From Palaeococcus ferrophilus DSM 13482 (GTDB lineage Archaea; Methanobacteriota_B; Thermococci; Thermococcales; Thermococcaceae): a DNA stretch of 64,000 nt. The notes beneath the pieces were generated by a model that saw only the letters and a program-made list of their open reading frames with translations, was not told where the DNA came from and searched no databases. Positions 14,536 through 22,920 of the stretch are shown here, one piece after another; within the stretch, counting starts at the first letter, position 1; every line of letters starts with the position of its first letter. The DNA lies in assembly GCF_000966265.1 (NCBI RefSeq), contig NZ_LANF01000019.1:248001-312000 (forward strand). The letters run 5' to 3'. A program made the position numbers and the translations under genes.

Positions 14536-14964
14536 TCAAAGCAGGCTTTCGATGAGCTTGTAATCCTCCTCTGGAATTTGCCTCATCGATTTACCCATCA
14601 AGTGGCCGCTCCAGCGCTTCTTGTTCGTGATGAACTTCAGCTTTGGAATGAGCGGCTTGAAATCAATCTCGCCGAGTTTGGCCGGCTTGATCTTCACCCT
14701 GAGTGGATAAGTCTCGTTCGGCATATGAGCCTTGAAAATCCTGCTTGAGTCCTCGTAAGGCTCGCTTATCACTTCAAAAATGCCGACAATTCTGGGTTCA
14801 AGGACTTCCTTGTTTTCGCGCTCCTGCTTGAGGTAGATGACGAGCTTATCGCCGAGCTTGACTTTGGCGATGGTATTCCTGTGCCTCCTCGGCACGCCCC
14901 AGACGTTCTTCTCCTTAATCACCTTCCAGTTCGCACGGTTGGTAATGCAGAGCCAGTAGGTCAT
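14536..14964 (-). CDS. EVE-domain protein (PUA-like, possible modified-base reader)
   Basis: A 142-residue protein that is a single EVE domain. It opens with [16 protein letters not shown], then [25 protein letters not shown], the pocket-forming part of the fold, and ends [29 protein letters not shown] domains are related to YTH and PUA folds and bind modified bases in RNA or DNA; many sit beside restriction or other defence genes. Here the type I restriction operon is the next operon. The ATG at 14964 is chosen for the GGTGACC just upstream; an in-frame GTG six codons earlier is less likely. Confidence 0.85.
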
Positions 14965-15044
14965 GGAGGTCACCCCCACCACTCTATAAACGGGAAGCTT
15001 AATAACCTTTTGTGTTCACCCATGCATATATTTAGCCACTAACC

Positions 15045-15150
15045 TTTAAATAGAAGTTTAACAGAGAAAAGAGTGGAGATGAGGGTAAGTCCCGGTGTCC
15101 GCCGCGTACCCTGAGGTACGCAGAAATGGCGGCCCGGGGGCCGATTCTAG
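15045..15150 (+). ncRNA. Putative structured RNA gene with its own TATA box
   Basis: A TATA box (TTTAAATA, 15045-15052) predicts initiation near 15075. Downstream is a GC-rich hairpin. CCCGG (15091-15095) pairs with CCGGG (15134-15138), CCGCC (15099-15103) with GGCGG (15128-15132), and GCGTACC (15104-15110) with GGTACGC (15115-15121) around a CTGA tetraloop. An AGAAAT bulge lies on the 3' side. The high GC in an otherwise AT-rich gap is typical of hyperthermophile RNA genes. It does not fit C/D-box spacing or show a 3' ACA, so the class is unknown. A terminator hairpin is an alternative. Confidence 0.45.
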
Positions 15151-15152
15151 GT

Positions 15153-15971
15153 TCAGTCTCTTATTAGCTGTGCTAAATCAAGATTTATTGCTTCAATCTT
15201 TATTGGAGTTTTAGGAAATTCCAGCTCAATAAGGTGCTTCAATTTGTTAATATATTCGGGGGTTGCACCAACAATACCAAGTAGTATCACTGCGTCTCGC
15301 CGGTATCTACGTTCATATGCTTTCCTGGCAGCATCTAAGCGAAATATTTGACTACGTACAACTTCTAGAGGAAGAGGACTAAGTTTTATCTCGATTATAG
15401 CATCCGTTTTTTCATCAAGTGGCATGACAGCATCTGCAACATGTCTCTCAATTCTGACCTGTCGTTTTGCTATAGAGTTATACTTCCGCTCAAGTTCCCT
15501 AATTGCAAATTCTTCGATAATGTACGGAGGAATTTTGTCTTTTTGATTGAACTTCAGTTTAACCCCTGGAGAAGCTTTGTCCTTGTTCTTTGATACTTCC
15601 GGGATTTCCTCGAGTTCACTTCTTTCCTTTTCTTGTACTTCTTGAGGGGTCGCATATGGAAGCTTAACAAGAACTTCAAAAAATGTACGTGCTGCTTCCC
15701 CACCTCTAAGTATTGCTACAAGATTCAAAAGAAAGTCTAATCTCGTGATTCCCGTTGCGATGATAACAATAGCAAGAAAATAAATTAATGAGTCCCTGGC
15801 AATTAGAGCTATTGACGATACTAAAACAATACTTGAAACCCTAAGGAGATCAGTTATATCAAGGCGTTCTTTTTTCATTTTGAATATGAATAATGCCAAT
15901 ATCATTACAAAAGCAAGAACAATGCCTAAAACTCCCACACTTGTTGGATCTGGAATTTCAAAGTTATACAT
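15153..15971 (-). CDS. Membrane protein with PD-(D/E)XK-like nuclease domain, fourth gene of the type I RM operon
   Basis: A 272-residue protein. Three hydrophobic helices occupy residues about 10-90 (VLGIVLAFVMILALFIF, LVSSIALIARDSLIYFLAIVII). A charged linker follows, then a C-terminal domain. That domain contains VADAVMPLDEKTDAIIEIKLSP, fitting the D-x(n)-E-x-K core of PD-(D/E)XK nucleases, followed by a helix and a hydrophobic strand (YRRDAVILLGIVG). The start is the ATG of a TGATG overlap with the hsdS stop, with GGGGTGAG just upstream, so it is coupled to hsdS. Its AT content is visibly higher than in hsdM and hsdR. It is not a standard RM subunit; it could be an accessory nuclease or an anchor for the complex. 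The fold is inferred from motif spacing. Confidence 0.65.
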   Translation of the reverse strand: MYNFEIPDPTSVGVLGIVLAFVMILALFIFKMKKERLDITDLLRVSSIVLVSSIALIARDSLIYFLAIVIIATGITRLDFLLNLVAILRGGEAARTFFEVLVKLPYATPQEVQEKERSELEEIPEVSKNKDKASPGVKLKFNQKDKIPPYIIEEFAIRELERKYNSIAKRQVRIERHVADAVMPLDEKTDAIIEIKLSPLPLEVVRSQIFRLDAARKAYERRYRRDAVILLGIVGATPEYINKLKHLIELEFPKTPIKIEAINLDLAQLIRD

Positions 15972-21460: not shown

Positions 21461-21625
21461 GTGAGTGAAGTGGGAGTAATCACGATCTCCGTTGATGATG
21501 AAATCGAGAAAAAATTCAGAGAACTCGTGGTGAAAAAATACGGGAAAATCAGAGGAGCGTTAGGAGTAGCAGTAACCGAGGCTATGAAACTCTGGATTAA
21601 AAAAGTCGAAAGCGAGGAAAAATGA
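21461..21625 (+). CDS. Small ribbon-helix-helix-like protein encoded in the TnpB element
   Basis: A 54-residue protein with a strand-helix-helix pattern: GVITISVDDEIEKKFRELVV, then KIRGALGVAVTEAMKLWIKK. This fits small RHH/CopG-like DNA-binding proteins. The GTG at 21461 lies about 26 nt after a TATA-like CTTAAATATTA (21429-21439), which suggests a leaderless mRNA. A second GTG at 21470 has GGTGAG upstream and is an alternative start. The stop overlaps the tnpB ATG by four bases (ATGA), so it is translationally coupled to tnpB. It may regulate tnpB or the ends; this is inference. Confidence 0.7.
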   Translation: MSEVGVITISVDDEIEKKFRELVVKKYGKIRGALGVAVTEAMKLWIKKVESEEK

Positions 21626-22920
21626 AGCGGTCAATAACCATTAAGCTCCAGCCCTCAAAAACCCAAGAGAAAACACTCAAAGAGTTAGCTCTTATTAGCT
21701 CGAAAGTTTGGAACAGGGTGAACTATCTCAGAAGGCAGGAATTCTTTGAGGGGAAACCCATAGACTTTCTCAAAACTGAGAAAATAGTTTATGAAGAGTT
21801 CAAAGCTGAAATAGGCTCGGCAACAGTCCAGCAAATTTGCAGGAAGAACGCCGAAGCTTGGAGAAGTTTCTTCTCCCTTTTGAGGAATAAACGGAACGGA
21901 GAACTCCCCAAATGGCTTAAACCAAAACCACCCGACTACATCAAGGAAGAAGGCTTAATCGTCCTTAGAAATGACCAATACAGAATTGAGGGGAATAAAC
22001 TCATCCTAAAAGGCCTTGGGAAGTTTAAACGCTTGGAAGTTCAATTCAAGGGGAGAATTCATCTTAAAGGAAAGCAAGGGAGATTAGAGATAACTTATGA
22101 CCCAATAAGGCAGAAGTGGTATGCTCACATTAGCATCACCTTAGAGAAAAAACTTCAGGGCGAGGAATGGGTAGAAGTTCCAAGACAACCTTTAGGAAAC
22201 CTATCCGCCGGAATTGACCTTGGAGTGAACAATTTGATGGCCGTTTACGTCGAAAACGGGGAAAGTTTTTTGGTGAACGGCAGGCCTCTGAAGTCAATAG
22301 CCTTCTATTGGCAGAGGAGAATAGCGGATTATCAGTCAAAACTCAACAAAAGCGGAGCTAAAAAGAGCAGAAAACTCTCCAGAATGCATCAGAAGGCCAA
22401 GCTTCAAGCGAGGCACTACATTAACACGGCGGTAAGGCAAACTGTTGAAAGGCTTTATCGTCTCGGAGTTTCCAGAATTGTAGTCGGTTATCCAAAGGGA
22501 ATAGCAAGAAACCCTAACAAGGGTAAGAAGCAGAATTATCTCCTCTCCCACATCTGGAGGTTCAACACGGTAATAAAACGGCTCAAGGAAGTAGCCGAGG
22601 AGTATGGTATTCAAGTTCTGGTTGTTAACGAGGCTTTCACTTCAAAAACGTGCCCCGTCTGCGGGAAGCCCCACGAAGGGGCTCGCTTTGTTAGAGGATT
22701 ATTTAAGTGTCCCGCAACGGGGCTTATCTTTAACGCCGACTTAGTTGGCGCTTTTAATATTTTGAAGAAGGGCGTAAAAACTATAACCCCGAGCTTGCCG
22801 GGTTTAACGGCAAGTAGGGGTAATTGGCCGAAGGCCCGGCCAGAGGGGTTCGAAGAACCCGATTCAAGTTGGGTTCTTGTAAGAACCCCTCAAACTTCCC
22901 TGTCTTTAGCGAGGGGTTAG
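21622..22920 (+). CDS. tnpB: RNA-guided nuclease TnpB
   Basis: A 432-residue TnpB. The RuvC catalytic triad is intact: D199 (GIDLGVNN), E337 (VVNEAFTS) and D373 (NADLVGAFNIL). The zinc finger is incomplete. C344 and C347 (TCPVCGK) and C363 (FKCPATG) are present, but residue 366 is Thr where the fourth Cys normally stands. TnpB uses an RNA derived from the right end of its element to find and cut DNA beside a short target-adjacent motif. The last about 45 residues overlap the probable guide-RNA region and end RTPQTSLSLARG. The start overlaps the stop of the small upstream gene. Activity is likely unless the zinc-site change matters. Confidence 0.9.
   Translation: MKRSITIKLQPSKTQEKTLKELALISSKVWNRVNYLRRQEFFEGKPIDFLKTEKIVYEEFKAEIGSATVQQICRKNAEAWRSFFSLLRNKRNGELPKWLKPKPPDYIKEEGLIVLRNDQYRIEGNKLILKGLGKFKRLEVQFKGRIHLKGKQGRLEITYDPIRQKWYAHISITLEKKLQGEEWVEVPRQPLGNLSAGIDLGVNNLMAVYVENGESFLVNGRPLKSIAFYWQRRIADYQSKLNKSGAKKSRKLSRMHQKAKLQARHYINTAVRQTVERLYRLGVSRIVVGYPKGIARNPNKGKKQNYLLSHIWRFNTVIKRLKEVAEEYGIQVLVVNEAFTSKTCPVCGKPHEGARFVRGLFKCPATGLIFNADLVGAFNILKKGVKTITPSLPGLTASRGNWPKARPEGFEEPDSSWVLVRTPQTSLSLARG

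Follow-up and report, generated by a model that had tools for sequence, protein, structure and literature searches.

The locus and its genes

The gene considered here, which we call the cargo gene, is the last gene of a complete, intact hsdR-M-S operon of a type I restriction-modification (RM) system in Palaeococcus ferrophilus DSM 13482; the whole stretch of 64,000 nucleotides that was analysed is referred to as the window. The features of the locus are collected in Table 1. The coordinates given for the cargo gene in a preliminary description of this DNA are correct, and the strand, which that description did not state, is the minus strand.

Table 1. Features of the type I RM operon and its surroundings (positions in the window)
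Feature	Position	Strand	Remarks
74-nt conserved GC-rich hairpin element	15074..15147	+	TATA-like TTTAAATA upstream; convergent to cargo gene
EVE-domain gene	14536..14982	-	far border of cargo slot
Cargo gene, 272 aa	15153..15971	-	2-3 N-terminal TM helices and C-terminal PD-(D/E)XK-like domain (D180, E194, K196)
PD-(D/E)XK-like domain coding region	15156..15539	-	residues 145-272; model pLDDT 89.3
Juxtamembrane motif FLLNLVAILRGGEAA	15690..15734	-	residues 80-94; 12/15 positions invariant in three homologues
hsdS, specificity subunit, 436 aa	15971..17281	-	two target recognition domains
hsdM, 498 aa	17278..18774	-
hsdR, 844 aa	18777..21311	-	EcoAI-type (NCBIfam); own PD-(D/E)XK motif D...VVEAKK
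IS605 OrfB/TnpB-like gene	21622..22920	+	beyond the other end of the RM operon

The ATG of the cargo gene lies inside the stop of hsdS, TGATG (mRNA ...TTCAGGGGTGAGTTGTGATG...), although translation could also begin at a GTG three bases earlier, and a Shine-Dalgarno-like GGGGTGAG is found within hsdS, just 5' of the start. The overlap and the internal ribosome binding site had both been described previously, and together they support the proposal that the cargo protein is made with HsdS by translational coupling. The cargo gene has a GC content of 37.5%, against 54% for the window. Its product has no match above the cut-off in Pfam, NCBIfam, PADLOC or PHROGs, and none at E 10 among PDB sequences; a Pfam match to the LEH family (E 0.002, below the cut-off) was dismissed because it conflicts with the modelled fold.

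The C-terminal domain

When residues 145-272 are modelled alone with AlphaFold2, using one homologue, the domain is predicted with a pLDDT of 89.3 and a pTM of 0.81, in the order a-b-b-b-a-b-a-b, which includes the alpha-beta-beta-beta-alpha-beta core of the PD-(D/E)XK fold. A Foldseek comparison of this model with the PDB returns EndoMS (5gke; E 8e-4, TM on query 0.60) as the top match, followed by Pab NucS (2vld), the small subunit of R.BspD6I (2p14) and XisH (2okf), all of them PD-(D/E)XK folds. The motif VADAVMPLDEKTDAIIEIK supplies D180, E194 and K196 (D180-x13-E194-x-K196), so that the D...(D/E)xK active-site set is complete in the window copy, as it is in the homologue from genome G004; a third copy, from G309, has ExL. 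Alignment of HH profiles with the NucS of Thermococcaceae places D180, E194 and K196 on the D, E and K of NucS, with identical 14- and 2-residue spacing; the catalytic residues of Tko EndoMS are D165, E179 and K181 (PMC7343888).

Membership of the NucS/EndoMS family (PF01939) is ruled out, as there is no Pfam NucS match, the HHalign probability is 0.3% and the profile score is not significant; a separate NucS is encoded in the same genome (G000:C12). With so low a profile probability, the assignment as a nuclease depends on the predicted fold and the spacing of the motif. That the motif reflects more than chance is argued by its retention, at all three residues, in an intact homologue that is 59% identical. 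The model and the motif support a PD-(D/E)XK-like nuclease fold for the C-terminal domain. A core of this type had been proposed from the sequence, and it agrees with both the predicted fold and the full D...ExK set; the structural comparison suggested at that time for the C-terminal region has PD-(D/E)XK enzymes as its top PDB matches.

The membrane part

The hydropathy profile contains one strong membrane helix (approximately residues 12-30) and two moderate ones (approximately 39-57 and 60-78), all within residues 1-105, and AlphaFold2 places helices at 9-33, 40-57 and 61-74. Of the three N-terminal membrane helices previously described, one is therefore strong and the other two are only moderate, which gives a count of two to three. 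In the model of the whole protein the C-terminal core is clear and the membrane part is poor (pLDDT mostly 40-70), so that the fold predicted for the transmembrane region is tentative. The charges, with KMKKER after helix 1 and an acidic N-terminus, fit a cytoplasmic location of the C-terminal domain. The best-conserved stretch across the window, G004 and G309 copies is FLLNLVAILRGGEAA (FLLxLxAILRGGExA), directly after the membrane helices; this conservation suggests that the membrane part probably does more than anchor the protein.

Homologues and their surroundings

Among 94 genomes, which we place in the Thermococcaceae on their gene content, there is one further intact copy (G004, 59% identical) and a decayed remnant with stops, which adjoins an EVE gene (G086). 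Together with the copy in G309, this gives three intact copies and one remnant. No relative was found in the genome contigs, viral contigs, phages or plasmids scanned. Other archaea gave weak profile matches (E 5e-5 to 0.1; G349, G321 and G011 among them) that were not accepted as homologues; the one in G349 is confined to the membrane helices, and a full-length copy was not seen there.

The window and G004 genes are 72, 80 and 47% identical at the first, second and third codon positions, which implies constraint on the protein. Conservation between the two is highest in the nuclease domain (67%), which keeps D180, E194 and K196. The G309 copy is 36% identical overall (45% in the membrane part and 31% in the nuclease domain), and with ExL in place of ExK it has no catalytic lysine; some members of the family may accordingly be inactive. 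From its gene content, G309 would be an archaeon of another family, resembling the Archaeoglobaceae, and the gene neighbouring its copy is one that we take to encode an inositol-phosphate cytidylyltransferase/DIPP synthase. There are no RM genes within 20 kb of the G309 copy, and no second copy in 394 genomes of that organism's phylum.

The G004 copy is flanked by CAAX-protease-like and LrgB-like genes, likewise with no RM genes within 20 kb; the hsdRMS genes of G004 lie approximately 360 kb away and have no cargo gene. Directly ahead of the G004 copy, however, is KELEKPFPAVLSRVFRGEL (L005 10530-10586), which shares 13 of 19 residues with the end of HsdS and ends at the same point, in DNA that is otherwise full of stops. 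This tail indicates that the G004 gene once sat behind hsdS and outlived it; the intact copy would have survived the decay of its hsdS down to the tail. Homologues lying mostly away from RM operons were named in the preliminary description as evidence against its proposal, and two of the three intact copies do now lie away from RM genes, but the G004 tail speaks for linkage in the ancestry of the gene within Thermococcaceae.

An exchangeable slot behind hsdS

The comparison covered eight operons whose HsdM is at least 67% identical to that of the window (Table 2); two of the eight, both from G063, are on incomplete contigs.

Table 2. Content of the slot behind hsdS in eight orthologous operons
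Operon	Slot content
Window	cargo gene (membrane part and PD-(D/E)XK-like domain)
G070	2-TM coiled-coil protein, then short TM protein and DUF3800
G063, operon one	2-TM coiled-coil protein, then short TM protein
G063, other operon	2-TM coiled-coil protein, then 412-aa gene in which a PD-(D/E)XK-like motif was recognised by eye
G078	372-aa TM protein and 451-aa gene
G042	105-aa 3-TM protein and DUF3800
G030	empty
G004 hsdRMS operon	no coupled gene

A membrane-protein gene overlaps the hsdS stop in six of the eight (in one G063 operon the overlap is read from the raw frame and the start is not certain), and four unrelated families are represented across the slot. The cargo gene is absent from the other seven operons and is not an invariant type I RM subunit; even where HsdM is 85-89% identical, unrelated genes or nothing are found instead. 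The occupant of the slot is thus exchanged between orthologous operons. On one side the slot is bordered by the 3' end of hsdS, approximately 165 bp of which are 74-85% identical between operons, and this conserved end may offer a recombination border for such swaps. On the far side there is an EVE-domain gene in the window, L040, L042 and L046, and close by in L041. Genes of this type recur beside RM operons or cargo slots, being seen also at L006, L044, L089, L098 and L158.

The 74-nt element occurs as a single, nearly invariant copy in eight Thermococcaceae genomes. In all seven of the other genomes (L040 4480-4552, L043 13747-13820 and L155-L159) it directly follows a DUF3800 gene and faces it in convergent orientation, in two cases in the same hsdS slot. 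The window has the element and no DUF3800, and the simplest reading is that the cargo gene replaced a DUF3800 module, the element apparently being the scar of that swap. The element has no Rfam match. It is more conserved than the protein, and is a candidate for a small RNA associated with DUF3800, perhaps as an RNA partner or as an antitoxin.

Cargo beside hsdS in the Thermococcaceae

In this family, cargo next to hsdS commonly encodes membrane proteins. Among 42 complete hsdS genes, 20 have an operon neighbour for a membrane protein, and 21 are followed on their 3' side by a gene that is tightly coupled to them. The median GC content of cargo genes is 38.3%, against 49.5% for hsdM/R (p~2e-12), and this AT-richness is a mark of horizontal movement. 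Genes with TM segments make up 30 of 78 cargo genes (38%) and 90 of 371 neighbours (24%), the background rate being that of the genes within the fetched loci (p=0.016); the excess is modest and the related loci are not independent. Known defence genes among the hsdS-side cargo are KwaA (2e-18), KwaB and GmrSD (1.7e-32), and DUF3800 is also among the cargo types.

In the second type I operon of the same genome (L093, G000:C13:115001-129000), hsdM is separated from hsdS by KwaA, KwaB and an additional TM gene, and hsdS from hsdR by a GmrSD gene, so that Kiwa and a type IV enzyme are nested in a type I operon; genes matching this cargo are found in two other genomes (L084, L090). In three genomes the interval between hsdM and hsdS contains a PIN-domain gene whose product has one TM segment (L088 8262-9338, L078 5197-6282 and L082 5121-6224). 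The PIN match (PF10130) is that of L088, of which the L078 and L082 genes are homologues, and the product is another candidate membrane-tethered nuclease cargo.

Possible roles of the cargo protein

The explanation that we favour, and hold to be reasonably probable, is that the gene is exchangeable antiviral cargo encoding a membrane-tethered nuclease that is not part of HsdRMS. It would occupy the slot behind hsdS, translationally coupled to HsdS and outside the HsdRMS enzyme. The N-terminal helices would hold the protein in the membrane, with the NucS/EndoMS-like PD-(D/E)XK domain in the cytoplasm, and the likeliest action would be to cut nucleic acid at the membrane, for example invading DNA on entry, in the manner of SNIPE. 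We infer membrane insertion, nuclease activity, the substrate and an antiviral role, the last by analogy with KwaA/KwaB, GmrSD and the like, which are cargo at other loci.

The preliminary description took the gene to be the fourth member of the type I system, perhaps tethering the enzyme at the membrane to meet incoming DNA. The operon position and the overlap with hsdS are what this proposal would lead one to expect; nevertheless, operons with 85-89% identical HsdM manage with unrelated genes or none, two of the three intact copies persist with no adjacent RM genes, and HsdR has a nuclease motif of its own. A fourth subunit is rejected on the exchange of cargo between orthologous operons, and a tethering role is very improbable. 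A different kind of dependence on the RM enzyme would be that of a guard, in which the type I enzyme keeps the cargo protein silent until viral inhibition of restriction frees it to kill or stall the cell, with coupling to HsdS fixing the ratio of the two. The tight coupling to hsdS is in keeping with this, as is the frequency of membrane proteins among cargo of the same slot, membrane proteins being a common kind of abortive effector. There is also a precedent in EcoprrI, where PrrC is sequestered in the type I complex and freed on infection (PMC3874165; PMC12707154). Against it, the intact G004 and G309 copies have no adjacent RM enzyme to silence them (G004 does have hsdRMS elsewhere), and the swapping of cargo between nearly identical RM enzymes argues against specific contacts; we regard a guard as rather unlikely.

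It is also conceivable that the C-terminal domain is a dead PD-(D/E)XK fold used for binding, and that the activity resides in the membrane part with its FLLxLxAILRGGExA motif, which might form a pore or sensor. In favour of this, no stretch is better conserved than the juxtamembrane motif, and the G309 copy has diverged less in its membrane part than in its nuclease part, which lacks the catalytic lysine. The window and G004 copies, on the other hand, keep all three catalytic residues within their most conserved domain, and an inactive domain seems to us unlikely, somewhat more so than a guard.

Relation to known systems

EndoMS/NucS (5gke, 2vld; PF01939 NucS_C) resembles the cargo protein in its C-terminal fold, as predicted, and in the D-x13-E-x-K spacing, but the cargo protein has no sequence-level match to it and has membrane helices instead of the N-terminal NucS domain. 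The comparison with SNIPE, a membrane-bound nuclease that cleaves phage DNA as it is being injected (PMC13190303), is one of possible action: both proteins have a membrane-anchored N-terminus and a C-terminal nuclease (predicted in the cargo protein). SNIPE uses GIY-YIG and DUF4041 domains, neither of which has a Pfam match in the PD-(D/E)XK-like cargo protein, and no family is shared.

Other likenesses are of position. PrrC is embedded in the EcoprrI operon and, like the predicted nuclease of the cargo gene, is an accessory protein encoded within a type I RM operon, although it is an ABC-ATPase-type anticodon nuclease, unlike the cargo protein. TgvAB of V. cholerae, encoded by GmrSD genes within a type I operon, gives protection even when the RM genes are absent, and RloF of Campylobacter is a similarly placed GmrSD gene (PMC11411939). 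Both lie beside hsdS, as does the cargo gene, but they are bacterial type IV enzymes of the DUF262/DUF1524 type, unrelated to it in sequence. Kiwa (KwaA/KwaB), a membrane protein with a partner, is found in other type I RM operons here, one of them in the same genome (L093), and is also unrelated in sequence to the cargo gene.

Implications

Defence genes inside type I RM operons are a known arrangement, with few bacterial cases. No report of the cargo-protein family or of the Thermococcaceae slot was found in the open-access literature, and both the family and the archaeal slot appear to be new. A broader proposal, which we offer tentatively and with less assurance than the role favoured above, is that the type I RM operons of Thermococcaceae may serve as docks for interchangeable, often membrane-linked defence modules flanking hsdS, and that the cargo gene may found a new family of membrane-tethered PD-(D/E)XK nucleases whose cleavage of invading DNA at the archaeal membrane would complement sequence-specific restriction. 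One hsdS-side slot can be traced across orthologous archaeal operons in which the restriction enzyme stays and the passenger changes, the passengers often being membrane proteins or nucleases. Reading what sits behind hsdS is a direct route to uncharacterised archaeal antiviral genes, and the cargo gene itself provides a candidate membrane-bound nuclease of hyperthermophilic archaea that can be put to the test.
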